Shown here piece by piece: positions 4,990-18,510 of a DNA stretch of 39,223 nucleotides. Under the pieces are notes generated by a model. That model ran no database searches. It was given only the letters and a program-made list of their open reading frames with translations, and was not told where the DNA came from. The stretch covers positions 1 through 39,223 of IMG/VR virus record IMGVR_UViG_3300020125_000394; one strand, 5' to 3'. The first letter of the stretch is position 1; each line of letters begins with the position of its first letter. Source of the stretch: a virus. The translations under genes were made by a program, and so were the position numbers.

Positions 4990-5096
4990 GAATCACTGTC
5001 CCAAACGATCCTTTGGGTTACTCATTTCCGGCAACAGCCGTCGTAGTTGACCACCTGGCGGGCCTGGGCTACGTATGCCGCTGAGGACAGTGATTC
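4990..5096 (-). ncRNA. candidate structured RNA closed by a 12-bp perfect stem
   Basis: Bases 4990-5001 (GAATCACTGTCC) are perfectly complementary to 5085-5096. Stacked one base inside this stem are 5035-5038 with 5080-5083 (CAGC/GCTG) and 5042-5046 with 5069-5073 (CGTAG/CTACG). A hairpin 5000-5005/5012-5017 (CCCAAA/TTTGGG, 6-base loop) sits on the other side. The result resembles a junction of two arms inside a closing helix. It could be a leader element of the minus-strand operon or a small RNA; a replication or protein-binding site is an alternative. Confidence 0.4.
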
Positions 5097-5131
5097 CCGT
5101 CGAACATTGGCATCCTGGCCTGTAAGGGAGA

Positions 5132-5149
5132 CGACGGGCCTCCCCGTCG
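5132..5149 (-). terminator. hairpin directly after the HNH stop codon
   Basis: On the minus strand CGACGGG-GAGG-CCCGTCG forms a perfect 7-bp stem with a four-base loop, starting 2 bases after the TGA of the HNH gene. There is no run of U after it, so it may be a processing or partial termination signal, or part of the adjacent structured element. The sequence CCCGTCGA is also repeated directly at 5096-5103. Confidence 0.4.
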
Positions 5150-5150
5150 A

Positions 5151-5501
5151 TCACTTCCTTCTCGACCGTCTCCGCTCCTTTAGTTTCTTGTTGGCGGTTC
5201 TGGTCGAAACCTTCCTGTCTCCGTCAAACTCAATTTCCTCGTGGCAGTCGTTGCACATGGAAACGATATGAACGTCATTCACCCCAGCCAGCACGTCGCT
5301 CCGGTAGTTCCGGTGGTGAGCCTGATTCGCCCTCCCGCCGCATCCCCGGCAAACGTGGCCGTCGCGCTGTAGCACTCTGGCCCGAATTGTCCGCCAAAGA
5401 TCAGACGCCAAATACGCCGCATAGCTTGCGTAGCCAAGCGCCTTTAGCACTCGGTTACGCTTGCCATATTCGTTCAGAGAGTAGCGTCTGTTTGGTTTCA
5501 T
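5151..5501 (-). CDS. HNH endonuclease
   Basis: The 116-residue protein has the HNH layout WRTIRARVLQRDGHVCRGCG at about residues 36-55, then NQAHHRNYRSDV and a second Cys pair in MCNDCHEE. The two CxxC pairs bind structural zinc, and the HH in AHHRNY supplies the metal-activating catalytic His. Such nucleases cut or nick double-stranded DNA. In tailed phages they often assist DNA packaging, but those sit next to the terminase; this one is in the early replication operon, so a recombination or mobile-endonuclease role is also possible. The C-terminus is strongly basic (RRRSRRK). Confidence 0.88.
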   Translation of the reverse strand: MKPNRRYSLNEYGKRNRVLKALGYASYAAYLASDLWRTIRARVLQRDGHVCRGCGGRANQAHHRNYRSDVLAGVNDVHIVSMCNDCHEEIEFDGDRKVSTRTANKKLKERRRSRRK

Positions 5502-5510
5502 CGCGTGAAC

Positions 5511-5798
5511 CTACTCGTCGGAAGCAGCCCTTAACTTCTTGACTTTCACCGTGTCCTCGTCGAGATGGTTCAGTTCGACCATGAATCCGTCGAAACTGTA
5601 GTTTTCCTGGTTGTTTTCCTTCATCACCTCGATCAGCTTCGATTTCAGCTTGACCTCGGATTCCAGAAGCTCCATCCGGGCATCGCGGGCATCGACGTAC
5701 TTCGTCGCTGCTTTTTCAATCGCCGGAATCCGTTCTGGGGCGGTTCCCTCGATGAATGTCTGAGACTCTTTCGGAACCTTGACTCGTTTCTTCGCCAT
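5511..5798 (-). CDS. small coiled-coil protein (95 aa)
   Basis: It starts MAKKRVKVPKESQTFIEG after an AGGAG site. The central part, about residues 25-65, is one long charged helix (KYVDARDARMELLESEVKLK...). The end (YSFDGFMVELNHLDEDTVKV) looks like a small beta element. The helix followed by a 'y.f.g..v' strand pair resembles small phage early proteins of unknown function found beside recombination genes. No firm family. Confidence 0.6.
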   Translation of the reverse strand: MAKKRVKVPKESQTFIEGTAPERIPAIEKAATKYVDARDARMELLESEVKLKSKLIEVMKENNQENYSFDGFMVELNHLDEDTVKVKKLRAASDE

Positions 5799-5832
5799 AA
5801 ACTACTCCTATGAAAAGGGTTAAAACGCTTGC

Positions 5833-6006
5833 TCACTTCGCTTTCTTTTTGCGCTTCACTTCAATCAATTCGACGCGAACGAGCTTGGCTTCCGGAGAGG
5901 GCTTGCCTCGCACTAGCATGTACTGTTTATCCGGGTGTGCCCAATAGCACAGACCTTCGGCAAGTTTCCAGGCGTAGGAAAACGCTCGCGGCTCTTTCTT
6001 CGCCAT
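5833..6006 (-). CDS. small basic hypothetical protein (57 aa)
   Basis: A complete frame starts at ATG 6006 with an excellent AGGAGG site 5 bases upstream. It encodes MAKKEPRAFSYAWKLAEG, then CYWAHPDKQYMLVRGKP and a Lys/Arg-rich end (VKRKKKAK). It lies between the helicase and the 95-aa gene, with short spacers and the same orientation. No family recognised; the basic tail suggests contact with nucleic acid. Confidence 0.6.
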   Translation of the reverse strand: MAKKEPRAFSYAWKLAEGLCYWAHPDKQYMLVRGKPSPEAKLVRVELIEVKRKKKAK

Positions 6007-6014
6007 AAATCCTC

Positions 6015-7613
6015 CTAGAACGCTGGTTGCTGTCTTTCCTGGGGCGTTTCCAAGTAATCCCCGGAATGATTCCCACGGGTGACTGTGAACGGGAACAGCT
6101 GCTTCACCTTCCTCCCACCATCAGGGGAATACGCCTGAAGCATCCTGTATCGGTGGCCGTCAACCAGAACAGTCTTGGGAACGCGGTAATTCGTCCCCTG
6201 CGCCTTGTTCTCGTCGTAGAAAATGCCAACAGCCTGCTTCCAGGTCCGGTTCGACTTCCCGGCTCGGAAGAGAGTTTGCACCATCAACTGCTCGGCCGAC
6301 TTGAGTTTGGCCTTCTTCTTTCTCTCTTCCTCCTTAATCTCGACGAGCTCCTGCCCGTTGAATTCAAGGCCGCTTCCCCTACGTTCCTCGGAAGAGGGTT
6401 CGTAGCCGCAGTTCCGGCACTTCCCCCCGCGGTAAATCGCCTGGCACTGGGGACACTCTATGCTTGGGCGGGTCTTGTGCTCGGTGACTGTCTTCTCGGA
6501 ACGGTCCAAACTCCACAGCGGGTCGTCCTCGAAGAAGCCGTGGCGGGCTACATTTCCGCCATGATCAAGAATTAAGGCGTCTGTTTTCTCGGGATGGATG
6601 CGGGAAGCGCGCCCAACCATTTGGCGGTAGCGGACGACGCTTCCCACGGCCACGCACAACTGGACGCACCCGATTCGCGGAATATCCGTCCCCCGCTCGA
6701 CGACCTGGACGTTCGCCAGATAGTCAATCTTGCCGTGATTCAAGTCCCAGAAGATCGCCCGGCGCTGGCTGTCTTCAGTATCCCCGTCCACGTAGGCCAC
6801 GCTTAAACCGGCCTTCTCAAGCTGTTCCTGAGCGTCCTGGGCGTGTGAACGACGCGGGAAGAATCCGACTGTGGGGCGACCGTCCGCGAATTTCTTCCAG
6901 TCCCGCACGAGGTCGCCGGCCAGCCCGTCCATAGCTGCAGCTTCGCTGTCCTTGGTGAATTCATCCCCCCGCTTCACGAGCAACCCGAGCTTCCCCTGGG
7001 TTCCGCGGAAGTAGCGGAACGGACTGAGGAAGTGATTCTGAATGAGCCAATCGGTCGAAGGACCAAGCACGATTTCTCGGTAGACGTCGGCAAGGCCACG
7101 GGCTTGTGGTGTTGCTGAAAGCCCGATGACGTAAGCGGGGTGCTGGCCGAGTTCGTTCCGCTTGCGGTCGTGATAGGCCAGGAACCGGGCGAATTTATCG
7201 TGATGGGAGTGACACTCATCGAACACACATAGGTCAAAGGTAATGTCGGTTGTGTACTGGTCGTCTTCGATGAACCAGGATAGCAGGGAATCGATGCTGG
7301 CGACCTGAATTCGGCTGCCGTAGCGTGGTTCCCGCCCGCTCATCACGATTCCGTGGGGGAGCTTCGGTTCCTCGGTGAAGGAATCGGCGGCGTTGTCGAC
7401 CAAACCCCTTCGGTGGACACAGAACAGGCTTCGTCCGGTCTGATTCGGAAGCGGAGCCCGGTTCCCAGCAGTTCCCAGAATCCACTTCGAGCAGCGTGTT
7501 TTTCCGAACCCTGGGTTCGCACAGAGAATCACCCGACCGTGCTTCGCCAGGGCGGCGCGGGTGCGGTCGCGGAGGTCTTCCTGATGCGGATAGAGGGAAG
7601 GGAGGTCGATCAT
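6015..7613 (-). CDS. SF2 DNA helicase (DEAD/DEAH type, RecQ/UvrB-like core) with zinc ribbon
   Basis: The 532-residue protein carries Walker A ANPGFGKT (about 32-39), motif II DECH (132-135), motif III SATP (166-169) and motif VI QMVGRASRI (331-339), so both RecA-like domains are intact. A four-Cys zinc ribbon (CPQC...CRNC, about 387-402) follows, then a helical tail. Proteins of this build unwind or remodel branched DNA using ATP and are common in phage replication/recombination modules. Here the neighbours include a Rad52-like protein and a 5'-3' exonuclease, so a role in recombination-dependent replication is likely. Its ATG overlaps the preceding stop in ATGA. Confidence 0.92.
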   Translation of the reverse strand: MIDLPSLYPHQEDLRDRTRAALAKHGRVILCANPGFGKTRCSKWILGTAGNRAPLPNQTGRSLFCVHRRGLVDNAADSFTEEPKLPHGIVMSGREPRYGSRIQVASIDSLLSWFIEDDQYTTDITFDLCVFDECHSHHDKFARFLAYHDRKRNELGQHPAYVIGLSATPQARGLADVYREIVLGPSTDWLIQNHFLSPFRYFRGTQGKLGLLVKRGDEFTKDSEAAAMDGLAGDLVRDWKKFADGRPTVGFFPRRSHAQDAQEQLEKAGLSVAYVDGDTEDSQRRAIFWDLNHGKIDYLANVQVVERGTDIPRIGCVQLCVAVGSVVRYRQMVGRASRIHPEKTDALILDHGGNVARHGFFEDDPLWSLDRSEKTVTEHKTRPSIECPQCQAIYRGGKCRNCGYEPSSEERRGSGLEFNGQELVEIKEEERKKKAKLKSAEQLMVQTLFRAGKSNRTWKQAVGIFYDENKAQGTNYRVPKTVLVDGHRYRMLQAYSPDGGRKVKQLFPFTVTRGNHSGDYLETPQERQQPAF

Positions 7614-8014
7614 TTCTTCGCCTTGGCTGCTTTGGCTGCTGCTCGCTCCGCTCTGGCATCTGCGCGGGCGAGTGCGCGAATCTCATCATCCTTGGTGGAG
7701 TTGTAAACAAACTCGTCTCTCTGTTCGCGCTCAGCGTCCAGAGACGTTCCCTTCAGAAGTAGGTCCGCGAACATCCGTGCGATTTCGCCCCGTGCCGCGT
7801 CATTCCACGGACAATGGCCCTTCGTCAGCAGCTTCCGCGAAAGAGCAATCGCCGCCACTTCCATCTCGCTACGGCTGGAAACCACCGGCAGCGGGTCAAC
7901 AAACCGCACAGCGGCTGGATTCTCGTGTTCCACGATGCAGATGCCGTTATCGCGGAGCAGTTGAAGATCACCTTCGGAGAAGGTCTTCGGCGGCACAATC
8001 ATCATCGGTTTCAT
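7610..8014 (-). CDS. hypothetical protein (134 aa)
   Basis: The protein opens MKPMMIVPPKTFSEGDLQLL and is mainly helical, with KLLTKGHCPWNDAARGEIAR in the middle and an Ala/Arg/Lys-rich helical tail (ADARAERAAAKAAKAKK). The tail suggests nucleic-acid or protein contact. No motif for an enzyme. It is coupled to the helicase by ATGA, so it may be a helicase partner, which is an inference from position only. Confidence 0.6.
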   Translation of the reverse strand: MKPMMIVPPKTFSEGDLQLLRDNGICIVEHENPAAVRFVDPLPVVSSRSEMEVAAIALSRKLLTKGHCPWNDAARGEIARMFADLLLKGTSLDAEREQRDEFVYNSTKDDEIRALARADARAERAAAKAAKAKK

Positions 8015-8017
8015 AAA

Positions 8018-8884
8018 TCACTTCCACGATTTGGCACTCTTGAGAAGATTCTTACACAGTTCAATCACCTGCTTATGAAGACCTGCCTTGGGAATAAGCA
8101 GGTTCAAATCGTCGAAGACCCTCATAGCGGCCTCCATCGTCTTGGCCGCCTTCGCCCGTAGATCGTCGCCATGGTCTTTCTTCTCCTCGGGCTGCGAATC
8201 GGCCGGCTCGCCCCATGGGTGTAGGCACTTGGCACAGTCCACCATGCCGAATTCGTCAGTGTTCCACTTCGTTCCCGCACAGTTCGGGCACTTCCCGTAA
8301 TCCACCTTCCCCGGCGCGGAATTCCGCTCCTTGCCACTCCTCGGCGGCCTGGGGTCTGTCTCCTGGGAACTCGTTTCCCGCTCTGTTCCTTCCTCTCCTG
8401 ATGAATCAGCGGCCTCGCCGGGGTCCGGGGCGGCAGAAGCAGGGTGTGGTTCTTTCGACGAGTTAGCATCGCCGCCCGGCTTCCCTTTCTCGCTGATTGA
8501 ATCGCTCGCAAGTCCATTGCTGTCAACAGGTTTGCGTTCTTCCAAATTCCGCACGTGCGGAATTTGAGGCTTCTCTACCTTTCCTATCTTGATGAGTTCA
8601 TTGATGGAGAAGTCCTCGGGCTTCATGGTCGCCGGAATTCTCTTTACTGCGTTCGCAGCCTTCATATACCTGCCGGCGGAATCGTGCGAAAACTCAAAGT
8701 GCTGTTCGACGAATGGCATAAACTCACCGTGCGGCAGTAACTCCTTCATGGTGTTCAGGACGCCACCGATCTGAATGGCCGTCCCCATCCAGTCCCTTCC
8801 GGCCTTCACATGCTCACGCCAGAGCGCTTTGAGTTCTGGAATGAGGTTGTAAGCCTTCGTTTGCTCGGTGGTGAGTGCTGACAT
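8018..8884 (-). CDS. DUF3102-like N-terminal domain protein with C-terminal zinc ribbon
   Basis: The 288-residue protein has an N-terminal helical region (DWMGTAIQIGGVLNTMKELL, then PHGEFMPFVEQHFEFSHDSA and GRYMKAANAVKRIP). This pattern matches the DUF3102-type phage domain, which resembles the DNA-binding part of partition/primase-associated proteins. A long low-complexity Ser/Glu/Pro linker follows, then a zinc ribbon (CPNCAG...CAKCLHPW) and a C-terminal helix. It is probably a DNA-binding replication or segregation factor. The start has AAGGA 8 bases upstream. The leader between this gene and csrA contains interleaved inverted repeats that could control its expression. Confidence 0.65.
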   Translation of the reverse strand: MSALTTEQTKAYNLIPELKALWREHVKAGRDWMGTAIQIGGVLNTMKELLPHGEFMPFVEQHFEFSHDSAGRYMKAANAVKRIPATMKPEDFSINELIKIGKVEKPQIPHVRNLEERKPVDSNGLASDSISEKGKPGGDANSSKEPHPASAAPDPGEAADSSGEEGTERETSSQETDPRPPRSGKERNSAPGKVDYGKCPNCAGTKWNTDEFGMVDCAKCLHPWGEPADSQPEEKKDHGDDLRAKAAKTMEAAMRVFDDLNLLIPKAGLHKQVIELCKNLLKSAKSWK

Positions 8885-8901
8885 TTGCTCGTCCTTAAAA
8901 G

Positions 8902-8999
8902 CCGGACCCGCTGGAGGTGTGATAACCCCGGCGCTTCAGAAAAGCGCAGAATCTCCCCAGCGGATCCGGTTGTCAGAAATTCGGTGCGGGGGTTATCAC
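8902..8999 (-). ncRNA. interleaved inverted repeats: candidate pseudoknot or attenuator leader
   Basis: In the minus-strand transcript the order is as follows. B' GTGATAACCCC (8999-8989) comes first, then 19 nt, then A' CCGGATCCGCTGG (8969-8957). Next is a 6-bp hairpin GCGCTT/AAGCGC (8947-8931), B GGGGTTATCAC (8929-8919), 4 nt, and A CCAGCGGGTCCGG (8914-8902). B' pairs with B over 11 perfect bp; A' pairs with A over 13 bp with one G-U pair. The stems cross, which is pseudoknot topology. Stem A is followed directly by CTTTT and then the ribosome-binding site of the next gene, so it could act as an attenuator. An origin or operator at the DNA level is the alternative. Confidence 0.6.
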
Positions 9000-9011
9000 G
9001 TCGAGCAATAT

Positions 9012-9458
9012 CTACTCTTCTTCGCCTTCTGTCAATCCTTCGTTCTGAATTTTTCCGTCCGGCTCGTGAGAAATCGACACATGCCCGCGGCCGGCGCAAG
9101 CCGCGGGGAAGGCGATCCTGGTCCCAGCAAGCAATTCTTCTTGGGTTAAGTACCAGAAAGATTTGCCATCGAAACCCCATTCCACGAGAGAACCTTTCGG
9201 GAAGCCATCCGTCAGCGTCAGTTCGCAATACTCTTCTCCCTCCTTCGGTTCCCATTTGTCTGAGGGAACGCCGCTTAGAAGCGGCCGCTTCGCCCCATTT
9301 TTCTTAATGTCGTCGTAAATCTCTTGCCGATGGACTTGGGTAGTGGCGGGGGCTTCGATGCCCAGGCGAACCTTGTCACCGCGAATGTCCACGACCATGA
9401 CTTTCACGTCGTCGCCGATCATCAGCGATTCCTGTTTCTTCCTACTCAGAACTAACAT
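9012..9458 (-). CDS. csrA: CsrA-domain protein with long C-terminal extension
   Basis: Residues 1-60 are an almost canonical CsrA: MLVLSRKKQESLMIGDDVKV, then DIRGDKVRLGIEAP and VHRQEIYDDIKKNG. CsrA dimers bind GGA motifs in mRNA leaders and repress or stabilise translation. Ordinary CsrA ends near residue 60-75. Here another ~85 residues follow (including DGFPKGSLVEWGFDGKSFWY and a Glu-rich end) with no recognised family. The frame is continuous, so this is a genuine fusion or extension. The start overlaps the NinG-like gene by 17 bases, with AAAGGA upstream. Likely targets could be phage or host mRNAs; the next gene's leader contains several GGA motifs. Confidence 0.9.
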   Translation of the reverse strand: MLVLSRKKQESLMIGDDVKVMVVDIRGDKVRLGIEAPATTQVHRQEIYDDIKKNGAKRPLLSGVPSDKWEPKEGEEYCELTLTDGFPKGSLVEWGFDGKSFWYLTQEELLAGTRIAFPAACAGRGHVSISHEPDGKIQNEGLTEGEEE

Positions 9459-10017
9459 TAGAGATTCCTTTCATTCGTGAAACAGCGGAGTGTAATCGAA
9501 ACGCGTAGCAAATCCTCATGTCGATGAGCTCGTCCCTGGTGAACTGCTTCGACTGGGTTTTAAGCCGCTCTAATCGCTCAATGTGCTCGGGCCGCACTTC
9601 CAGCATCCATTTCCTGAATAACTGCTGCTCTCCGCTCCGATAGACATTACAAGCCGAACACTGGGGAGCTACGTTTTCTTCCTCGAACAGAATCGAATTA
9701 CACCTCGAAGCCAGAAAGTGGCCGGTGTGCATGTGATTAACTCCGACCATCCATGCCGTATTCCCCTTCCACGGCAGAATCTTTCCGCAGGTCACGCAGG
9801 CGCAGTAGCCAACCTGGCGGAACGCCTGGCCGATATCGCCACCAATGATGCAGGTCGTGAGACCATCGGGCATGGCAGCCGCTTCGGCGCGAATGACCTG
9901 TTGGAACAGGGGTGCAACGAACTTCCGTATATACGTTCCAGTCGAATACTGCCGCGCGACTTCCAGCATCTTTGCGCGGGCGTTCGCGGCCTTCTGTTCG
10001 GGGGAGAGTTTAGGCAT
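9442..10017 (-). CDS. ninG: NinG-like recombination protein (HNH-family)
   Basis: The 191-residue protein contains CACVTCGKILPWKG, then TGHFLASRCNSILFEEENVA with PQCSACNVYRSG after it. This is the arrangement of lambda NinG/Rap: one CxxC pair, a GHF/His element and a second CxxC pair followed by helical segments. Lambda Rap is a structure-specific endonuclease that resolves branched recombination intermediates. It sits among other recombination genes here, which supports the call. The N-terminus (SPEQKAANARAKMLEVARQY) is helical. The stop and start with its upstream neighbour overlap by one base (TAATG). Confidence 0.78.
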   Translation of the reverse strand: MPKLSPEQKAANARAKMLEVARQYSTGTYIRKFVAPLFQQVIRAEAAAMPDGLTTCIIGGDIGQAFRQVGYCACVTCGKILPWKGNTAWMVGVNHMHTGHFLASRCNSILFEEENVAPQCSACNVYRSGEQQLFRKWMLEVRPEHIERLERLKTQSKQFTRDELIDMRICYAFRLHSAVSRMKGISNVSSE

Positions 10018-10256
10018 TAGGTTTCCTTCATCAGTAAATTAAACGCTGCTCCGGTCAGTCCTTGCCGTGCGAGGGATTGCGCCCTCCCAACTGGGCCAAT
10101 TGCCCTCATCATGCGGTCCCACCATTGCTCATTCGCCTTGGTGCTTTTGAGCCGGTCCAGAACCCTTCTGGCCCTAGCGAGGGTGCTTTCACGGTATGGC
10201 CGTTCGTCCCAGCCGGTATGCCGCTCCATGATTTTTCTGGCCTGTCTGATGTTCAT
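10017..10256 (-). CDS. small hypothetical protein (79 aa)
   Basis: It starts MNIRQARKIMERHTGWDERP and is helical and basic, with RARRVLDRLKSTKANEQWWD. No family recognised. It is coupled to the exonuclease gene by ATGA and to the NinG-like gene by a one-base overlap, so it belongs to the recombination cluster. The basic helices would suit DNA binding, but that is inference. Confidence 0.6.
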   Translation of the reverse strand: MNIRQARKIMERHTGWDERPYRESTLARARRVLDRLKSTKANEQWWDRMMRAIGPVGRAQSLARQGLTGAAFNLLMKET

Positions 10257-11428
10257 ATGCGAGTAGTTTGCGGCAATTCCAGGTCGGTGCGGAGCGTCAC
10301 AAGTTTTCGAGTGATTTCGAGTTTGCTTTCAAAGTCAATCAGGGCCTTCCGCTTGGCCGGCTTAATCGTTTCATCCCCAGCTTTGGCCGCTTCAATCGCC
10401 TTCTCTACGCTGCCGAACTGCTTCACGAGGTCCGCAGCGCCTTTCTCCCCGATCCCGACAGCGCCCTTAATTCCGTCAGTCACATCGCCCATGATGACCT
10501 GATAGTCGATCCACTGGGCAGGCGGAATCCCTGTTGCCTGGGTATGGGCAAAGGAACTGAGCCATTTGTAATCGGGCAGGTGTTCCCCGCTGGTTTCATC
10601 CTCAATCCATGTGACGTCCAGAAGCATGTTGCACTTCTCGCTCAAACACTGGCGGCAGTCCTTATCCTGTGTTAAGAGCGTCACCCTGCCCTGGAATTGA
10701 GTCGCAAAGCTGGCCATGACATCATCGGCCTCGAACCCTTCGGAGAGCGCACAGGCGAAGCCAGCCCCCTTCAGGAGGTCGTAAACCAAATTGAGTTGCT
10801 GAGTCAGTTCAGGATCACGCGGCGGCCGGTCCTTGTACTTATCATCCCAGTCTTTCGTGAACTCCTTGCGGTGGTTGGACTTAGAGTCGAAACAGCAGGC
10901 GCAATCGGTCAAGCCCTTCTCTTTGAGTCTGTTGACGGTTCGCTGAACCCATGTTGTGACGCTGACTGCGGCCTCGACCCCAGCCCCGGAGTACCAGAAT
11001 CTATGGAGGAAGTAGCTGACATCGACCGCCAGGAGCCAGCGGGCCCCGCCGTTCGCTCGTTCCTCCTTGTCGGCAGCCCTCGATTCGTCGGTGGTCAGTC
11101 CCTTATCGACGATGGCAGCCAAGCGGGCCAGGCGATCAGGGCGGGAAGCGGCCTGCATGTACTGGCTGTAAGTCGCTTCGGCCTCGCGGTCTGATTCCTG
11201 GGGGTACGCTCGGCAGACTCCGGCAGCGCGGGAGAGCAGGCCAGGGGAAACCCATTCGGGCCAAATTTGTTGGTGGGTGTCGGGCCACTTGGATTCCGCG
11301 AAGCGGGCCAGATCACCAACCCAGAACATGATGTCACGCTGTTGTTCGATGAGGTCTTTGCCCCAGGCTTCCGCTTCCTGAAGCGTCATGTTGGAACAAT
11401 CGAGGAATCGCTTTCTGAGTCGGCTCAC
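10253..11428 (-). CDS. 5'-3' exonuclease (FEN/T7 gp6-like) with extra N-terminal domain
   Basis: The 391-residue protein has the FEN-type nuclease core in its last ~260 residues. LLAVDVSYFLHRFW is followed by GFEADDVMASFA, LLTQDKDCRQCL and the helix-hairpin-helix region GDVTDGIKGAVGIGEKGAAD. The acidic residues in these motifs bind the two catalytic metals. The first ~125 residues are an added helical domain (FWVGDLARFAESKWPDTHQQ, then WPEWVSPGLLSRAAGVC) that faintly resembles the DUF3102-like domain encoded at 8018. The enzyme would resect 5' ends or remove primers for the Rad52-like annealing protein. The GTG at 11428 is preferred because of GGGAGGA upstream and the GTGA overlap. Confidence 0.88.
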   Translation of the reverse strand: MSRLRKRFLDCSNMTLQEAEAWGKDLIEQQRDIMFWVGDLARFAESKWPDTHQQIWPEWVSPGLLSRAAGVCRAYPQESDREAEATYSQYMQAASRPDRLARLAAIVDKGLTTDESRAADKEERANGGARWLLAVDVSYFLHRFWYSGAGVEAAVSVTTWVQRTVNRLKEKGLTDCACCFDSKSNHRKEFTKDWDDKYKDRPPRDPELTQQLNLVYDLLKGAGFACALSEGFEADDVMASFATQFQGRVTLLTQDKDCRQCLSEKCNMLLDVTWIEDETSGEHLPDYKWLSSFAHTQATGIPPAQWIDYQVIMGDVTDGIKGAVGIGEKGAADLVKQFGSVEKAIEAAKAGDETIKPAKRKALIDFESKLEITRKLVTLRTDLELPQTTRI

Positions 11429-11793
11429 TTCGCATCCTCCCACAGAATCAGGCAGCCGTAGAATGGCCAGCCATAGAAGTTGCCGAAAAACTCCCGCATG
11501 TAGTGCCAGTTTTCAAATCCGTCAGCCCGAGCGAAAGCGTCTAGGTCAACAACTGGGTCCTTGGTCGCTCCGATGAACACGTTCGAGGTAAATACTTCGA
11601 TGGCCAGCGTCCCGAGCGATTTCGCTTGGAAGAATTCGATTTGCGGGGAGCGGTAGGCTTTATCCTCCCAGTAGCGCAGGCTCAACTCTTCGCCTTCCTT
11701 GATTGGCCGCTTCCGCTTCGGGCGGATGGTCTGCCGCTTCGTGCCAGCCTTGATCGGCTCGACGAATCGCTTTTGGAACATGAGCACGGTCAC
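11425..11793 (-). CDS. ASCH/PUA-like domain protein
   Basis: The 122-residue protein shows the ASCH pattern: MFQKRFVEPIKAGTKRQTIR near the N-terminus, then RPIKEGEELSLRYW and a beta-rich body ending FYGWPFYGCLILWED. ASCH domains are related to PUA domains and bind RNA or modified nucleosides; phage copies are common and of unknown exact role. It starts at GTG 11793, which overlaps the upstream stop (GTGA); ATG at 11781 is an alternative. A second, different ASCH protein lies at 16112. Confidence 0.78.
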   Translation of the reverse strand: MTVLMFQKRFVEPIKAGTKRQTIRPKRKRPIKEGEELSLRYWEDKAYRSPQIEFFQAKSLGTLAIEVFTSNVFIGATKDPVVDLDAFARADGFENWHYMREFFGNFYGWPFYGCLILWEDAK

Positions 11794-11969
11794 TCTGCCC
11801 CCCGCTCATTCACTTGGGTTACTCTGATTCCCTCGCCCCACACCAGCATCATCACCCCTAACACGCTTCGGGGGTCGTTCCCCTGAACCACCGTCAGAAG
11901 CGTTCCCTTGGGGTCGCGGATTTCATAGGTATTAAGATTTTCCAACAGGGGTTCGGGTGATTCGATCAT
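11790..11969 (-). CDS. small hypothetical protein (59 aa)
   Basis: This complete frame begins at ATG 11969 with a strong GAGGAG site and encodes MIESPEPLLENLNTYEIRDP, then a beta-type segment (LLTVVQGNDPRSVLGVMMLV) and an acidic end. It overlaps both neighbours (ATGA in front, GTGA behind), which argues that it is real. Family unknown. Confidence 0.6.
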   Translation of the reverse strand: MIESPEPLLENLNTYEIRDPKGTLLTVVQGNDPRSVLGVMMLVWGEGIRVTQVNERGAE

Positions 11970-12157
11970 CGTTCAATCTCCTCAGTTGTGACCTTGGGCT
12001 CCACTTCGGCCAGTCCGACAGAGATTAGCCCGCGGACGATGAACAGCAGCGCCACAACCTTCTCGACCAGCGCCTCAGTGTCGCCGATCTTCAGGGAGAT
12101 GATTTCCTGCTCCAGTTTGTTGGCGCGATCGCGGAGTTCAAGCAATGGGTGTTTCAT
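11966..12157 (-). CDS. small coiled-coil/helical protein (63 aa)
   Basis: An N-terminal charged helix (HPLLELRDRANKLEQEIISL) is followed by a more hydrophobic helix (EKVVALLFIVRGLISVGLAE) and an acidic end. AGGAG precedes the ATG by 8 bases. The hydrophobic stretch is long enough to touch a membrane but contains charged residues. No family recognised. Confidence 0.6.
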   Translation of the reverse strand: MKHPLLELRDRANKLEQEIISLKIGDTEALVEKVVALLFIVRGLISVGLAEVEPKVTTEEIER

Positions 12158-12187
12158 GGTCGTTCTCCTAATTTGGCCATCGTTTCC

Positions 12188-12397
12188 TCACTTCGGTTCT
12201 TCCACTAACTCCTCGTAAACTGCATACCAACCATCTCCCCACGGCGTTCCCCACTTGGTAGACGTCATTTGCCGCCAAGCCCAAGGCTGGCCAGCGGTTT
12301 TTTCTGCTATCCGTTTGGCGACATCCAAGGTGGAAGCTACGCCGAGAATGGTTGATTCTCCGAACGCGATTTCTTCGACAGCAATGTAAACTTTCAT
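12188..12397 (-). CDS. small hypothetical protein (69 aa)
   Basis: It begins MKVYIAVEEIAFGESTILGV, followed by a helix DVAKRIAEKT and a Trp-rich segment (QPWAWRQMTSTKWGTPWGDG). A beta-helix-beta layout ('MKVYI....STLDVAKRIAE') is typical of small phage proteins of unknown function. The AAAGG site lies 6 bases before the ATG. A longer frame covering the same bases on this strand is a shadow. Confidence 0.6.
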   Translation of the reverse strand: MKVYIAVEEIAFGESTILGVASTLDVAKRIAEKTAGQPWAWRQMTSTKWGTPWGDGWYAVYEELVEEPK

Positions 12398-12405
12398 AAA
12401 AACCT

Positions 12406-13185
12406 TTATTCAAAGGGTACATCACTCGAAACGCCACCCGGTTCCTTCGTCTCTGCGATCCGCTTCGTGCAGCGCTCCAGCGCATCAGCGGTCCAGCAGG
12501 AAGAATCAGCCAAGGGGAATTCCCCAACGACTGAGACCACGAACCGCGAGAAGCCCTCGGCCAGTTCCTTCTTGTTCTTCTGATCTGGGGCGAATTTCAG
12601 CCGCCAGTTTTGTTTGAGCTCGTGCAGGGCCTCGGTAGTGATTCCCTCGGTTTCAACGTCCTTCGGCAGCGCCCAGGCGGGTAGGCTTGGCGTCTTCCAC
12701 CAGAACGCAGGCAAATCGTTGGTTTTACTCGCCTTGTTCCATAACCTCGAACCAGTTTGGTTTTCCTCGCTGGTGTCGGCGAAAACTGCGTCAAGATGGT
12801 ACAGGTAGCGACCGATTCCCCACTGAGACCCGGCCCGCTTCATAGCTCCGGAGAATCCGCCCTTTGCGGGCTCGATATTGGTCGGTTCAGAAACGTCCCA
12901 TTTTGTGATCCACTCATCATTGATCTTGATGGAGATTCCACAGACAAAAGCGGCCCTGGTCCGCACTTCGCCCTTATTGTTCATCGAGCTAATCTCGATC
13001 ATCCGCGGTTCTTCGTTCCGCCAGCCATCGACCCCGCACACTTTGTCTAACCGTTCCTGAATCGCCCTATTGGTGATATAGGCCACCACGAGGCAAAAGA
13101 TTCCCTTACCGCCTCGGCCGGCGTGGGAAGGTCGCCATTCGACGTCGGCATCTTCAAAGGGGAGAGCTAAGTCGAGCAGATTCAT
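12406..13185 (-). CDS. Rad52-like single-strand annealing protein
   Basis: The 259-residue protein starts MNLLDLALPFEDADVEWRPS. It contains the Rad52/22 family core: an FCLVVAYITNRAIQERLDKV segment, GVDGWRNEEP, a beta-hairpin region, and EPAKGGFSGAMKRAGSQWGI with GRYLY. That last motif is the hallmark of this annealing-protein group. Such proteins coat single strands and anneal complementary DNA during phage recombination. A 5'-3' exonuclease two genes down gives the usual exonuclease/annealer pair. The start at 13185 follows an AGGAATT site; longer readings upstream run through the C-rich spacer and look non-coding. Confidence 0.88.
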   Translation of the reverse strand: MNLLDLALPFEDADVEWRPSHAGRGGKGIFCLVVAYITNRAIQERLDKVCGVDGWRNEEPRMIEISSMNNKGEVRTRAAFVCGISIKINDEWITKWDVSEPTNIEPAKGGFSGAMKRAGSQWGIGRYLYHLDAVFADTSEENQTGSRLWNKASKTNDLPAFWWKTPSLPAWALPKDVETEGITTEALHELKQNWRLKFAPDQKNKKELAEGFSRFVVSVVGEFPLADSSCWTADALERCTKRIAETKEPGGVSSDVPFE

Positions 13186-13219
13186 AGGGGGGAATTCCTG
13201 CGGGGGAGAGGGGAACGGG

Positions 13220-13579
13220 TTACAGCGGGATGGACTTCCACGCGCGGTCAATCGCTCGCGCCCAGTCAGCCAGTGCCGCGTGATAGTCATAGTCAGCGGT
13301 CAGGCCATAGCGGAACCGCTTTAGTCCGTCCAGCGAGATAACGGCTTTGGCGGCTTCCAAGGCCAACAGCGAGTAATCGCGGTTTTCCTCCGGCGAGCAG
13401 TTCAGCCGTTCACAAAGCGAGTCAATCTCTTCGACGGTAAGCGGGTCGTGTTCCTCGAAGAATGTCCCTTCGCGGTCGCTCCCAGCGATGAATTTCCCGG
13501 CCTGCGGATCGCGTTTTTCCAAGTCTTGCCAGTGGCGCAGGGCAGCCAGAACGGTTGCTAGTTCTTTGGGGGTAAGCAT
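13220..13579 (-). CDS. hypothetical protein (119 aa)
   Basis: It starts MLTPKELATVLAALRHWQDL with AGGAG upstream. The sequence LTVEEIDSLCERLNCSPEEN is helical, and an Asp/Tyr-rich segment DYDYHAALADWARAI follows near the end. Small helical proteins of this kind are frequent at the promoter-proximal end of phage early operons. No family recognised. Confidence 0.6.
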   Translation of the reverse strand: MLTPKELATVLAALRHWQDLEKRDPQAGKFIAGSDREGTFFEEHDPLTVEEIDSLCERLNCSPEENRDYSLLALEAAKAVISLDGLKRFRYGLTADYDYHAALADWARAIDRAWKSIPL

Positions 13580-13682
13580 CGGTCATTTCTCCTGTCGCCC
13601 ATATACTTGGGGAATAGCTGGCATATCAATTCCTCCATCCCGCTTCCCGTCCAAACTCACCCGGTTCAGACATCGGCAGGAG

Positions 13683-13790
13683 TTATTTCTTCTTACTGGC
13701 CTGCTCTTTCTCTGCGAGCATGGCCGTCTGATGTTTCATCAATTTCTCTAACCGCTCGGAAGTGAGCGGCAGTAGTTTTTTGGTTTGCAT
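13683..13790 (-). CDS. first small ORF of the early operon (35 aa)
   Basis: ATG 13790 follows GAGGAG at ideal spacing and encodes MQTKKLLPLTSERLEKLMKH and then an Ala/Glu/Lys helix ending SKKK. The longer upstream frame lacks such a site and overlaps the operator region. The strong ribosome-binding site and first position make it plausible as an early-expressed peptide; function unknown. Confidence 0.5.
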   Translation of the reverse strand: MQTKKLLPLTSERLEKLMKHQTAMLAEKEQASKKK

Positions 13791-14117
13791 TTCATTCTCC
13801 TCTACATAGCCCATGCGGCTGTACACTACTTTTCCGAGTTTGTACACTAGTTCGCCCTTGGCAATTAAGGACTTAGAACACAGCCGAAAAAAATTCGCAA
13901 CTTTTTTCCGTACTATCGGGGGGTGACCTATGAGCCGCTTCGTGTACCATATTGCTGGCGCGGGCAAAATGGCCTCTTGTTGAGAATACAGTCCATTTCA
14001 GGCCAATTCGCCCATAATCGACGCTCTAGGATGCCCCAGGACGCGTCCAAACCGCTTCGCTCGACCTAAATCACCTGCCACATTTCGCCCTCAGTCTCAA
14101 TAAGCAGGAATTCGCCC
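13791..14117. promoter_or_regulatory. divergent early/late control region (327 bases, no gene)
   Basis: This gap separates the leftward early operon from the rightward late operon. It contains two TGTACACTA sites (13820-13828 and 13841-13849) exactly 21 bp apart, and an A-tract (13887-13893) facing a T-tract (13902-13907) around TTCGCAA. A weak candidate leftward promoter is TTGCGA (13900-13895), 17 bases, TCTAAG (13877-13872). I found no convincing rightward promoter. The rightward gene at 14118 has an AGGAATT site. Confidence 0.6.
13820..13849. promoter_or_regulatory. tandem operator-like sites TGTACACTA x2
   Basis: Two identical 9-mers have a 21-bp period, which places them on the same DNA face two turns apart. 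They share the TACACTA (TAGTGTA) core with the inverted repeat around the RHH gene promoter at 15122-15163. They lie between the candidate early promoter and the first early gene, where a bound repressor would block transcription. Confidence 0.5.
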
Positions 14118-14477
14118 ATGCCCGAAACCCCCCCGCCCGCAACCAGTTCCCCCACCGCTTCCCCTGATGATCAGGAGCTCGACCAGGCTGCGGGAACAGT
14201 CGCGCTGCCGATATCAGACCCAGACGGCATCGCTTCCGGAACGATTCACTTCCCAGCCCACCTACTCACAGCCAGGCAAGCCGCCGCCGGCCACCGCGAG
14301 CCGCCGCGGACAGCCGCGGGAGCCGATTCGCCCGACCCCACCCCAGAGCAACGGGCCGCATTCTGGCAGGGAGTGAAGGACGGCAAGCACGCCGTCGAAG
14401 CAGCTCGAGCCGCGGACGCCATTTCCAGCACGCAACCCGCTTCCAAGAGCGATTCCAACGAGGATACTCATGGATAG
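14118..14477 (+). CDS. Ala/Pro-rich hypothetical protein (119 aa)
   Basis: The protein starts MPETPPPATSSPTASPDDQE after AGGAATT. The N-terminus is disordered and Pro/Ser rich. A segment IASGTIHFPAHLLTARQAAA and a helix PEQRAAFWQGVKDGKHAVEA follow. It is the first gene of the rightward operon and overlaps the next gene by 8 bases. No family recognised; a small terminase or head-associated role cannot be excluded. Confidence 0.6.
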   Translation: MPETPPPATSSPTASPDDQELDQAAGTVALPISDPDGIASGTIHFPAHLLTARQAAAGHREPPRTAAGADSPDPTPEQRAAFWQGVKDGKHAVEAARAADAISSTQPASKSDSNEDTHG

Positions 14478-15126
14478 CCCCTCCAAGCCCCCTGAGCCTG
14501 CCGCAGACGCCAGCACAGCCGCACAGCCACAAGAGGCCAAACAGGAGGTGGGGAACATGCTCGATGCGTCTCCGACGGTCTCCGCGGCTCAAAAGCCCGT
14601 CCTGGTGAGTCCCACAGGGCAGCCGCTGGCACGAGGTCCCGATGGTCGGCTCTACAATCCGGCCAAGGGCGAACCGCCGCCAAAAGCGCAATCGGCTGCG
14701 CTTTTGAATTCTCCTAAACCCTTACAGGCCAAGGATATAAATTCTGGGGGATTCCCAGAAGGGGGGAATACTGACAGCGGAATCAGTGGATTAGATGCGA
14801 TTCCGAAGCACTGGCCGAAGCTGCCTCCGAACGTAAGTCTAAGCGTAGAAATCAGTTGGGTTCAGGCGGAACGGCTGTATGTGGTGAAGGAACAGCCCGG
14901 CAAGAGGACGAAGGTAGACCTTTCGAACGCGACCAGCCCAGCCCCTTCTATGGCCGCATTATCATGGCTTGAGACCAGCATCAGGAGCTACGCGAAGTTC
15001 ATTGAGGTCGCCAGCAAGACCGCGGCCGCTTCGAATGATGAGGCCGAATTCGTTCGCAAGGAACGCATGGCCATAGCCGAGATCAGGAGCATACTTCGTG
15101 AGATGATGCCAGAGGCCAAGGGTTAG
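14470..15126 (+). CDS. hypothetical protein upstream of terminase (218 aa), possible small terminase
   Basis: The first ~110 residues are low-complexity (Pro, Ala, Gln, Ser), with LVSPTGQPLARGPDGRLYNP inside. The second half is folded: SLSVEISWVQAERLYVVKEQ, then SMAALSWLETSIRSYAKFIE and a final helix with IRSILREMMPEAKG. The helical end and its place ahead of the large terminase make a small-terminase role possible, but no helix-turn-helix is obvious. Its stop codon lies inside the RHH promoter/operator. Confidence 0.6.
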   Translation: MDSPSKPPEPAADASTAAQPQEAKQEVGNMLDASPTVSAAQKPVLVSPTGQPLARGPDGRLYNPAKGEPPPKAQSAALLNSPKPLQAKDINSGGFPEGGNTDSGISGLDAIPKHWPKLPPNVSLSVEISWVQAERLYVVKEQPGKRTKVDLSNATSPAPSMAALSWLETSIRSYAKFIEVASKTAAASNDEAEFVRKERMAIAEIRSILREMMPEAKG

Positions 15127-15163
15127 TGTATTGACAAAGTGAGTGGTTTGTTCATACACTAAC
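15122..15163 (+). promoter_or_regulatory. promoter within a 10-bp perfect inverted repeat (RHH gene operator)
   Basis: GTTAGTGTAT (15122-15131) and ATACACTAAC (15154-15163) are perfect inverted copies. Between and across them is a sigma-70-type promoter: TTGACA at 15131-15136, an 18-base spacer, and TACACT at 15155-15160. A start about 7 bases after the -10 falls at or next to the ATG of the RHH gene, so the transcript would be leaderless. The repeat is positioned for self-repression. Confidence 0.75.
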
Positions 15164-15167
15164 ACAC

Positions 15168-15338
15168 ATGGCAAGACCACCCTTCAAAGATCGTGACGCT
15201 GTTCTCTCCAAGGCCATGGCTATCAGGGCCAATCAAGCCGAGCTTCAACGATGGAAGGAGGCAGCAGCAAAGCAGGGGCTAACGCTCTCGCAATGGCTGC
15301 GAAACGTGCTCGATCGAGCGGCCCGCACCGGAAATTGA
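15168..15338 (+). CDS. ribbon-helix-helix (Arc/CopG-like) transcriptional regulator
   Basis: The 56-residue protein reads MARPPFKDRDAVLSKAMAIR, then NQAELQRWKEAAAKQGLTLS and QWLRNVLDRAARTGN. The strand AMAIRAN followed by two helices (aELqrWkeaA, tLSqWLrnvLdraA) is the RHH fold, also seen in antitoxins and MobC-like proteins. RHH dimers bind short repeated operators. The promoter in front is enclosed by a perfect inverted repeat, and no ribosome-binding site is present, consistent with leaderless translation. I see no toxin gene next to it, so a phage repressor is more likely than an antitoxin. Confidence 0.75.
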   Translation: MARPPFKDRDAVLSKAMAIRANQAELQRWKEAAAKQGLTLSQWLRNVLDRAARTGN

Positions 15339-15368
15339 TCCCCGACCCCGGCCGGCAGCGGGGGCCCC

Positions 15369-15848
15369 ATGCGGAATGTCCCTATAACCCGAATCATCAA
15401 AACGAGTGTTAAGATGGGCAACACTATGAGCAAGCTCCCCTCGTGCTTCGTTTCCGAGTACAAGTCCAAGACAGGAGGAGCGAAGGTCATGGGAGTTCCC
15501 ATCTTGGAACTGGACCGGGATGAATTGCTGGCGACCATCGGGCATTTAATAGCGTGTCCGAAGATAGAGCCCTCGGAATCCCTGTTGAAATTGGTGGGAA
15601 GAAGCGACTCAATTCCCCGCTGGCGGAACGAAGACGTGGAGGAATTCCTGGATGACCGGTCTGGGAGGTATGAAGCGGCTCTGGAGACTCACGAGAAACT
15701 GATTCGGGAGTTGCGGGACGCGGTTCAGAGGTTGGAATTGGAGAATGACCGATTGAAGTGGGAACTGATGTCGCCGAAGCGTCGGTACATGCGGCCGCCG
15801 ATCATCTCGTTCTTTGGTTTTCAGATGGAATCGGCGGACGTGGACTGA
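15369..15848 (+). CDS. hypothetical protein with C-terminal coiled coil (159 aa)
   Basis: The N-terminus is uncertain: ATG at 15369, 15414 or 15426, none with a clear ribosome-binding site. MSKLPSCFVSEYKSKTGGAK (start 15426) looks most natural. A helical acidic middle part (ILELDRDELLATIGHLIACP) leads into a coiled coil (LETHEKLIRELRDAVQRLEL). It ends with an aromatic tail, IISFFGFQMES. Function unknown. Confidence 0.55.
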   Translation: MRNVPITRIIKTSVKMGNTMSKLPSCFVSEYKSKTGGAKVMGVPILELDRDELLATIGHLIACPKIEPSESLLKLVGRSDSIPRWRNEDVEEFLDDRSGRYEAALETHEKLIRELRDAVQRLELENDRLKWELMSPKRRYMRPPIISFFGFQMESADVD

Positions 15849-15860
15849 TAGACTGATCGC

Positions 15861-16115
15861 ATGTGCCAGCACATTTACCCCGGCGTCAAGGAAGCGGTTC
15901 TGGCCTTGGTCCGAATCTTCGGGCCTGCATACGTCGGGGAAATACGGGGTGAACTGAGGAGCCTGATTCATGCGAAGCAGGTGGGGAACCTGCCGGAAGA
16001 GTTCGTGAAGTACCCGAGGGGGATTACGAGGAGCTTCGTGATTGATCTGCTGGAAGAACTGTGGGTAGCGGGTGAAGTGATTCAGGTGGACGACCATAAG
16101 TGGAAGGCAGCATGA
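15861..16115 (+). CDS. small hypothetical protein, winged-helix-like (84 aa)
   Basis: The sequence VKEAVLALVRIFGPAYVGEI, then SFVIDLLEELWVAGEVIQVD and DHKWKAA, has a helix-helix-wing pattern in which the last part would be the beta wing. This is a weak structural impression, so DNA binding is only possible. The stop overlaps the ATG of the ASCH gene (ATGA). Confidence 0.55.
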   Translation: MCQHIYPGVKEAVLALVRIFGPAYVGEIRGELRSLIHAKQVGNLPEEFVKYPRGITRSFVIDLLEELWVAGEVIQVDDHKWKAA

Positions 16116-16591
16116 AAGCTCTCACGATTTGCCAGCCGTACGCGCATCTGATTTGCCTGCCGGATGATGACGACCGCCGGAAGCGGGTCGAGAATCGAAC
16201 GTGGCCCACCAACTATCGCGGCCCGCTTCTCATTCACGCTGGCAAGAGCCGCCAGTGGCTCGAATTGAACGACGCTGGAGACCGGGATGAGCTTTACGAT
16301 TTGGCACTCGAGGATATGCAGTTCGGGGCCATCATCGGAATTGCAAACCTGCGCGATTGCGTGGAACTCAGGCGAGATGCGTACAATGGTCGGCTGCTTC
16401 CATTTCCTGAAAGCGTTCAACGTCGATGGCCGTGGCTGTCTGTTCACGAACACACAGAGGGGCCGTGGTGCTGGGTGCTTGAGGCTCGCCGGTTCGAGAC
16501 GCCGATTCCCTACAAGGGAGCGCAGGGCATTTTCAACGTGCCTAATGAAGTCGTAGAAGCAGAAGTGTTTACAACGAGCCTGTTTCGATGA
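16112..16591 (+). CDS. ASCH domain protein
   Basis: The 159-residue protein opens MKALTICQPYAHLICLPDDD and continues RKRVENRTWPTNYRGPLLIH with AGKS after it. This is the textbook ASCH opening (Q-P-aromatic, then E-N-R-T-W and L-I-H-A). ASCH proteins bind RNA or modified nucleosides; some are ribonucleases. The rest includes FGAIIGIANLRDCVEL and HTEGPWCWVLEARRFETPIP, also typical. It overlaps both neighbours by ATGA, and lies directly before the terminase. The ATG at 16112 is preferred over an in-frame GTG at 16100. Confidence 0.88.
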   Translation: MKALTICQPYAHLICLPDDDDRRKRVENRTWPTNYRGPLLIHAGKSRQWLELNDAGDRDELYDLALEDMQFGAIIGIANLRDCVELRRDAYNGRLLPFPESVQRRWPWLSVHEHTEGPWCWVLEARRFETPIPYKGAQGIFNVPNEVVEAEVFTTSLFR

Positions 16592-18510
16592 TTTCCCCGC
16601 TCTACGACCTCTACCCCAAAGACCCCACCGAGAATCTCAAGTGGCGAATCGCCTGCCGGGAGCGGGCGCTGACTGACCTCCGCTTCCGGAAGGTCTTAAT
16701 CGACGCCTGCATGTCGGACCTGCTGTTCTTCATGGGTTTCGCCTGCTGGAGCTTCGAGCCGCGGGCGAAGGTGAAGATTCGGCCGTTCATCCCCTGGCCC
16801 CATCAGGAATCGGTGTTCTTAGCCATCGACCAGGCGATCGACGATTCGGGGGAAGACAAGACCATCGATGTCATCGTGGATAAGAGCCGGGCCCAGGGGG
16901 GAACTTACGGGTATCTGTGGGTCGATTTGCGTCGCTGGCTCCGCGACCCGATGTTCTCGGCGGGGTTCGTGACCCGGAATGAATCGCTGGTCGATTCCAA
17001 GACCGATTCGAGCACGGTTCTCTGGAAGGTGGCCTGGGCGATTGAAAAGCTCCCCTTCTGGCTGGTCCCAGAGGGTTACGACCCGCAGAAACACCGGAAT
17101 TTGGGCCAGCACACGTTTCTGAACCCATCGAACGGAGCTCTGCTGTCGGGGTATGCGGCCGGGCAGGACGTGGCGGCCGGCGGGCGGGCGACCGTGTTCA
17201 CGATTGACGAAGCTGGCGCAAGGGACTTCGTTTCCGGGAACAAGGACGAAGCGGTGCAGGAATCGCTCCATGACGTGACGAACTGCCTGCGCATGGTCTC
17301 GGCCCGGTATGTTGATGCCGGGGTGTTCCATGAAGCCTGTGAGAATCCTGATTCTGCTCGAAACAGCGTTCATCTGGTCCTGGACTGGAAGGACAATCCG
17401 GTCCACGCGAAGAATTCCTACTTGGTCTCGGATTCCGGGCCAGTTGCTCGGAATCCAGCAGACCAAGCTGAAGTCGACGCTTACCACCTGCAGAATCCCG
17501 ATCTGAGGAACCGGCTGGAAAAACGGGGATTCAAGTACGAAGGGCGAGTCCGTTCCCCCTGGTATGACATGCGGTGCCTGAGACCTGGAAGCACGCCCCG
17601 GCTGATCGCTTCCCAGCTCGACAGGGATCCCCGCGGGGCCGTCGGGAAGGTGTTCACTTCGGAACTGCTCGAGAAGGCGAAGAAGGGCTGCCGACAACCG
17701 GTTTGGCAGGGGACACCGGTGTTCGATGCCGAGGACCTGAAGCTAACCGGTTTGCTTCCCCGCGAGGACGGGAATCTGAAGCTCTGGTTCAAGCCCGGAG
17801 CCGACTGGTCCCCCCCTCTCGGCCCGTTCACGGTCGGCTGCGATATGGCCTCCGGAAGCGATGGGGTGTACTCCTCGAACAGCGTGGCCTCGATTCTGGA
17901 CGACCGAACCGGGGAACAGGTCGGGGAGTACACGGTGAAGGGGATGCCACTGATTAAGTTCGCCCGGGTGGTGGTCGGGCTGTGTCTCTGGCTGCGGAAG
18001 GCGCGGCTGGGGTGGGAAGATTCTGGGATGAGCTCTCCCTTTGCGAAGGAGATTCTGGAAGTCATCTACTATGGAAACGTGTTCTTCCGGGACGTTCCTG
18101 AAATCGGTTCCAAGCGAAAGAGTCGCAAGGCCGGCTGGGGGAACCGGAAGAACGAGGACAAGGCGGACCTGTTCGAGCAGATGGCCCTGGCGATGGAGAC
18201 GGGCAAGCTGACCCTCCGGTCGGACGACCTGATTCGAGAGTGCGGAGAGTACGAATGGGAGGACGGAAAGATCGTTCATGCTCCCACGCGGAACCACGGG
18301 GCGAAGGAAGTCAATCACGGCGACCGGGCGATTGCTGCCGGTGTGGCCTGGCTGGTTTACAACTCGGAATCGGACGGCAAGATTGACAAGTCAGAGGAAA
18401 CCAGCGAAACTCCCGAAGTAGGAAGTTTTCTCTGGCGGGAACTCCAAGAGCAGAGACGGGCCGAAGAAGGGAGTCCCGAATTCGGAATTTGTGACGTGGT
18501 GAACTTCTAA
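16588..18510 (+). CDS. terL: terminase large subunit
   Basis: The 640-residue protein carries the terminase ATPase P-loop variant KSRAQGGT (about 99-106) and Walker B plus catalytic Glu in VFTIDEAG (203-210). Its C-terminal RNase-H-type nuclease starts with GCDMASGSDG (Asp about 419). Later come SGMSSPFAKEILE and NHGDRAIAAGVAW, where the Asp near the end completes the nuclease site. The motor pumps DNA into the prohead through the portal and cuts the concatemer. It is followed 7 bases later by the portal gene. The family (headful or cos) cannot be told from this reading. Confidence 0.92.
   Translation: MISPLYDLYPKDPTENLKWRIACRERALTDLRFRKVLIDACMSDLLFFMGFACWSFEPRAKVKIRPFIPWPHQESVFLAIDQAIDDSGEDKTIDVIVDKSRAQGGTYGYLWVDLRRWLRDPMFSAGFVTRNESLVDSKTDSSTVLWKVAWAIEKLPFWLVPEGYDPQKHRNLGQHTFLNPSNGALLSGYAAGQDVAAGGRATVFTIDEAGARDFVSGNKDEAVQESLHDVTNCLRMVSARYVDAGVFHEACENPDSARNSVHLVLDWKDNPVHAKNSYLVSDSGPVARNPADQAEVDAYHLQNPDLRNRLEKRGFKYEGRVRSPWYDMRCLRPGSTPRLIASQLDRDPRGAVGKVFTSELLEKAKKGCRQPVWQGTPVFDAEDLKLTGLLPREDGNLKLWFKPGADWSPPLGPFTVGCDMASGSDGVYSSNSVASILDDRTGEQVGEYTVKGMPLIKFARVVVGLCLWLRKARLGWEDSGMSSPFAKEILEVIYYGNVFFRDVPEIGSKRKSRKAGWGNRKNEDKADLFEQMALAMETGKLTLRSDDLIRECGEYEWEDGKIVHAPTRNHGAKEVNHGDRAIAAGVAWLVYNSESDGKIDKSEETSETPEVGSFLWRELQEQRRAEEGSPEFGICDVVNF

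Follow-up and report, generated by a model that had tools for sequence, protein, structure and literature searches.

The fhsA motif, a candidate RNA, is proposed to keep its terminator from forming through a pseudoknot that ties the terminator loop to a part upstream (PMC11109978), and in the well-studied HMP-PP riboswitch (thiS motif), a very compact leader, a pseudoknotted fold is set against a terminator (PMC6478431). Among phage RNAs, the put RNA of HK022 is 70–100 nt long, lies at the transcript start, and acts on termination (PMC9378689). The leaders of type III antitoxin and AbiF loci run from a promoter through a structured RNA and a terminator to a Shine–Dalgarno sequence and a gene (PMC12373285), and the STAXI motif is a pseudoknot found near DNA-handling genes (PMC2864571).

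Here, we compare with these systems a leader from the virus record IMGVR_UViG_3300020125_000394. The window is this full record (39,223 nt), and leader coordinates are window positions. A preliminary description of the region had reported two long crossing inverted repeats with a hairpin between them, and both sequence reading and a repeat search bore this out. The region is probably a transcription attenuator leader, in which read-through is set by pairing of the RNA 5' end with a terminator-like loop.

Layout of the leader and its predicted promoter

The leader reads on the minus strand between a csrA-domain gene and gene 8018-8884, in the order A, B, hairpin C, A', B', C-UUUU, AAGGA, and ATG. 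The features of the locus are as follows.

9012..9458, minus strand: csrA-domain gene upstream of the leader (CsrA domain at residues 1-52, plus an extension), with the promoter in its 3' end
9030..9035, minus strand: predicted -35 box TTGACA, within the 3' end of the csrA-domain gene (promoter scan)
9007..9012, minus strand: predicted -10 box GATATT after a 17-nt spacer, a geometry that recurs in relatives (promoter scan)
8989..8999, minus strand: A, 5' arm of the 11-bp stem, at the predicted RNA 5' end (sequence, repeat search)
8970..8988, minus strand: linker L1, which separates A from B
8955..8969, minus strand: B, 5' arm of the 13-15 bp terminator-like stem (repeat search, folding)
8948..8956, minus strand: joining segment GGAGATTCT, with letters common to G001 and partly to G040
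8931..8947, minus strand: hairpin C, 6 bp with the 5-nt loop TTCTG (sequence, folding)
8919..8929, minus strand: A', 3' arm of stem A, within the loop of stem B (sequence, repeat search)
8902..8916, minus strand: B', 3' arm of stem B (repeat search)
8897..8901, minus strand: C-TTTT, a short U-tract downstream of B' (sequence)
8892..8896, minus strand: AAGGA, Shine–Dalgarno sequence of gene 8018-8884 (sequence)
8018..8884, minus strand: gene downstream of the leader, 288 aa, with a DUF3102-like N-terminal part and a zinc-ribbon-like C-terminal part that is kept in relatives

Stem A joins 8919-8929 with 8989-8999 in 11 perfect base pairs, while the core of stem B joins 8902-8914 with 8957-8969 over 13 bp, one of them G-U. 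With a second G-U, stem B can reach 15 bp (8902-8916 with 8955-8969), a gain that takes in the first two bases of the joining segment. The preliminary description had placed CTTTT and then the AAGGA ribosome-binding site behind the second stem, and B' is indeed followed by C-TTTT-AAGGA-7 nt-ATG, with the ATG 18 nt past B'. It had also held that the 4-nt link between the 3' strands is short for both stems to coexist. The link alone is no bar, as the stems could stack via a continuous 3' strand; coexistence would still be hard, the probable obstacle being that both stems reach at least a full helical turn. Besides the two stems, a 7-bp outer complement, TTGCTCG/CGAGCAA (window 8885-8891 and 9002-9008), has a predicted fold that extends over the start codon; because it overlaps the -10 region, only read-through RNA from upstream could form it, hiding the start codon.

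The predicted promoter at stem A was absent from the preliminary description and was found in this follow-up. Its predicted +1, at about 8999-9000, is the first base of the 11-bp stem A, and TTGACA-17-GATATT is the only minus-strand promoter-like site within positions 5000-15500 (10.5 kb) of the window. The leader thus lies between a predicted promoter and a gene, as an attenuator does. Promoters, starts, and terminators are predictions throughout, made by the E. coli sigma70 consensus, which may differ from the rules of the host. A second good promoter-like site, TTGACA-18-TACACT, is present on the rightward strand (window 15131-15160, +).

The flanking genes vary among relatives. In the window, the CsrA domain carries an extension of about 90 residues that is missing from the CsrA proteins of relatives, and the G001 relative stops after 67 residues, counted from its MLVLSRK start. 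Gene 8018-8884 and its counterpart at L109 4474-5465 share the same zinc-ribbon-like C-terminal half and have unrelated N-terminal halves; the N-terminal half is DUF3102-like in the window and another domain in G001, an apparent domain exchange behind a conserved leader.

Comparison of the arrangement with chance

The interleaved pair A and B amounts to 24 bp, compared with 18 bp for the runner-up interleaved pair in the window and with a best interleaved sum of 22 bp in 60 dinucleotide shuffles of the whole window. When anchored at promoters, the arrangement scores 32, against best nulls of 24 and 20 (two shuffles each, 3369 promoter-like sites). The minimum free energy z-score is -3.9 for the minus-strand leader and -1.9 for the plus strand, and GTGATAACCCC has no other exact occurrence in the window. 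By our own estimate, either stem alone is expected about once per window of such size, and this is what speaks for chance inverted repeats as an explanation of the leader. However, the joint arrangement exceeds the shuffles, an orthologue carries compensatory changes, and the arrangement is aligned with predicted start sites, leaving that explanation with next to no probability. The interleaved repeats of the leader are not due to chance.

Orthologous leaders in related phages

Relatives were gathered with protein 16588-18510, which is similar to large terminase subunits, and this gave 68 related contigs. In one relative, G001, csrA and the counterpart of gene 8018-8884 are separated by a leader of the same layout, with a nearly equal stop-to-start distance and with TTGACA retained at the equivalent position despite a different protein tail. 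Its unpaired letters are partly shared with the window (CTGGGGARATTCTGCGC), whereas its stem letters differ yet pair, forming a 13-bp A and an 11-bp B. This case came from reading the orthologous junction and not from a pairing search. G040 provides a third orthologue of the leader, with joining letters GAATTCT, and the joining letters GGARATTCT are common to the orthologues. Homologous regions lacking compensatory changes had been named beforehand as an argument against an RNA role; in G001, the stems have changed and still pair. These compensatory changes support the earlier proposal of an RNA switch or attenuator with alternative folds.

Other routes to relatives were less productive. Single-protein queries with gene 8018-8884 or NinG recovered no relatives, the helicase as a query for the genome collection returned remote helicases only, and exact DNA patterns of the window stems or joining letters gave chance matches, except in G001/G002. 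Comparison of the leader with cultured phages revealed no similarity. Most homologues of gene 8018-8884 are without the element. Upstream of one of them (L238, in G029), a different structured leader is present, in which a 17-bp perfect stem, GTTACCAATCCCGTCGC/GCGACGGGATTGGTAAC, encloses hairpins and is not interleaved, about 50 nt past a strong promoter-like site.

A wider class of leaders with the same two-stem design

Besides the G001 and G040 orthologues, about 15 further loci share the design, and the element is spread over about a dozen phage records, with some genomes having two copies. A blind topology scan found a second G001 copy before NinG, a G006 copy before an Endonuclease VII gene, and a G012/G010 copy before a gene of no assigned function; all of these have a sigma70-like promoter with the -10 ending 6-10 nt ahead of A. 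A promoter-first search for stems of at least 10 bp starting near +1 added L184, L277, L281, and L078, which have strong predicted terminators, and L184 holds a second copy whose promoter matches that of the first but whose stems differ. Later additions were L144, L186, and another copy in L277, and L093 and L176 joined when a slightly longer 5' end was allowed. In the first six members, A begins 0-4 nt from the predicted +1, and in nearly all members the first stem starts within about 10 nt of the predicted sigma-70 start. An origin or operator at the DNA level, also raised in the preliminary description, does not suit an element whose position and direction both follow predicted transcription starts.

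In a uniform scan, 14 sites scored at least 16.5 with A placed 3-14 nt after the -10, while other placements of A gave mostly 0-2 sites and two bins just downstream gave 6 and 4, some of them real members. Three shuffles of each of 3730 sites (about 11,000 trials) produced one value above 17. The same scan found none in the lambda and HK022 genomes. Stepwise refinement of the scans on overlapping data makes these counts look somewhat more significant than they are, an effect that is smallest for the G001 comparison and the position control. Since members other than G001 were chosen for pairing, their pairing is not independent evidence. L096 and L185 were dropped as look-alikes, being not above noise or without good gene context; L168 exceeds its shuffles but is followed by no clear gene, and L168, L186, and L096 are uncertain members. 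A search with the L062 hairpin pattern returned near copies and coding matches only. That the design is kept with almost wholly different letters suggests that selection preserves the pairing itself.

The downstream genes include those of recombination and replication (NinG, Endonuclease VII, a helicase) and others without assigned function. Leaders at L109 3157-3242 and in L035 stand ahead of Holliday-junction endonuclease genes (NinG, Endonuclease VII), and the uncertain L168 element lies divergently beside a gene that is RusA-like by eye. G025, a more distant csrA-bearing phage, has two class elements, L176 5031 and L003 2016, in which an ATG lies right at the 5' arm and the open frame continues through the terminator.

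This distribution bears on the proposal that the CsrA-family protein encoded just upstream reads the leader as a translational operator, to which we assign a very remote chance. The csrA gene adjoins the leader in the window and in G001, and GGA is present in the joining segment and the Shine–Dalgarno sequence. However, CsrA/RsmA operators carry GGA in a hairpin loop, usually at the Shine–Dalgarno sequence, whereas the hairpin loop here (UUCUG) has none and the Shine–Dalgarno sequence is in no stem. The element is also present where csrA is not a neighbor: G040 has its csrA several kb off, and none was found in G006, G010, or G012. Translational operators in general fare no better, as AAGGA and ATG lie outside both stems in the window and likewise in the relatives, and the Shine–Dalgarno sequence of the window is unpaired in both folds.

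Terminator-like ends and competing folds

In several relatives, B is followed by U-tracts, with runs of 5-7 T. The terminator-like ends of five loci read as follows.

L062: GCGGG-TTTTT
L184: GGCTT-TTTT
L277: GGTCGG-TTTTTTT
L281: GGTCGGTT-TTTTT
L093: a run of T, then GGAGG and ATG

The terminator-like hairpin of members usually precedes a Shine–Dalgarno sequence and gene. In the window, the CTTTT tract after B' is weak, and a terminator scan limited to loops of 3-8 nt does not list it; the predicted terminators of L062, L184, L277, and L281 are strong. Since the window has only four U and the tract of G001a is poor, terminator strength must vary.

Three relatives show how the 5' strand meets the terminator. 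The L277 copy at 16008 (reverse complement) has an 11-12 bp hairpin whose entire loop is A' and which is followed by a T run. In L281, A' shares bases with the top of the terminator stem, so that A:A' and the complete terminator are mutually exclusive, and in L184 an inner stem flanks A'. From these architectures, the common denominator is the pairing of a 5'-terminal strand with a terminator-like loop, not the pseudoknot itself. Exclusion is explicit in L281 and L277, while for the window it comes from nested-fold energies and topology only. According to nearest-neighbor energies, with the polymerase at the U-tract (last 14 nt hidden) the A fold is more stable than the B fold by 5-21 kcal/mol in each of the 17 members analyzed; once the RNA is released, the energies favor the B fold in 11 of these 17. 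Pairing of the joining segment with A' appears in some predicted folds, not all.

A leader that protects the RNA 5' end would instead let A and B form a pseudoknot burying that end, stabilizing the mRNA against 5'-end-dependent decay with no attenuation. The closeness of A to the predicted +1 (0-4 nt, first six members) would suit it, as would the free Shine–Dalgarno sequence; moreover, the window loops are probably long enough for both stems, so coexisting stems that guard the 5' end are possible for the window. However, protection leaves the long U-tracts unexplained, as well as L277 and L281, where A competes with the terminator, and we regard it as unlikely.

The attenuator reading draws on the computed stems, their conservation without letters, A at predicted starts, the U-tracts of relatives, exclusion in some of them, and the order of the energies. 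We infer that B terminates, that A prevents termination, and that something regulates A. The mRNA would start at its own sigma70-type promoter near 8999 and extend leftward into gene 8018-8884. The 11 nt that leave the polymerase first (A) would pair with A' in the loop of the B:B' hairpin, and the A helix would hold the loop and slow or block the terminator, so that the polymerase enters the gene. If A were unavailable, B:B' would form and transcription would end after about 100 nt. Because the A fold is favored with the polymerase at the U-tract, read-through is the expected default from the leader's own promoter, and anything covering the first dozen nucleotides should trigger termination.

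Across the members, no common signal acting on A was found. Two candidates were set aside as not consistent across members: insulation from upstream read-through, in which upstream RNA would sequester A, and a leader peptide with its start codon at A, for which G001a offers AUG at +1 and the window GUG. A stricter proposal, fairly unlikely in our judgment, is that the first transcript bases serve as their own pass, such that only a free 5' end winding onto the terminator loop gives read-through, as a widespread phage device. Since both stems span roughly one helical turn or more, threading of the free end, a matter of topology and not of base sharing, would decide between the folds under this proposal. 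A limited search of open-access text found no description of termination control decided by topology, although an earlier one may exist.

Comparison with known systems

A search of Rfam 15 at the gathering score gave no match in the window or at the elements of five loci. STAXI repeats two or three times with conserved letters, unlike the leader here. Type III antitoxin and AbiF leaders have tandem repeats of about 33-50 nt that neutralize a toxin, whereas here there is no tandem repeat in 8700-9200 and no known type III toxin, the downstream gene being DUF3102-like. A riboswitch, RNA–protein, or antitoxin-like element, with the pseudoknot as the binding site of a small molecule or of the protein encoded downstream, would fit a structured RNA within a 5' leader, the GGARATTCT joining letters common to the orthologues, and a layout resembling AbiF or type III antitoxin loci (PMC12373285). 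Nevertheless, we find it improbable: riboswitches have a conserved-letter ligand core, whereas members of this class share topology and hardly any letters, stand before many unrelated genes, and contain no tandem repeats. The HMP-PP riboswitch likewise has conserved letters and a known ligand, and this class has neither.

The leader resembles HK022 put RNA in position, directly past the promoter as with putL (PMC9378689), which raises the idea that the folded leader binds RNA polymerase so that later terminators are ignored. However, put RNA consists of two conserved stem-loops that bind polymerase, with no pseudoknot described; here the stems cross, their letters are not kept in the class, and the HK022 genome itself gave no match in the same scan. 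A put-like role is therefore highly improbable. The fhsA motif belongs to bacterial fhs genes, and the partner of its terminator loop is a preceding hairpin, whereas in this phage class the loop pairs with the 5' terminal strand of the RNA, over 8-16 bp.

The attenuator reading places the leader beside intrinsic-terminator attenuators, with which it shares a predicted promoter, two folds that would compete, a terminator-like hairpin, a Shine–Dalgarno sequence, and a gene. In contrast to attenuators in general, the putative antiterminating strand here is the RNA 5' end and pairs with the terminator loop, the stem bases are mostly not shared between the folds, and there are no class-wide conserved letters. 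As nearly all stem letters change while the pairings and the transcript-start position persist, sequence-based searches miss the design. The class opens a direct test of whether pairing to a terminator loop decides termination.
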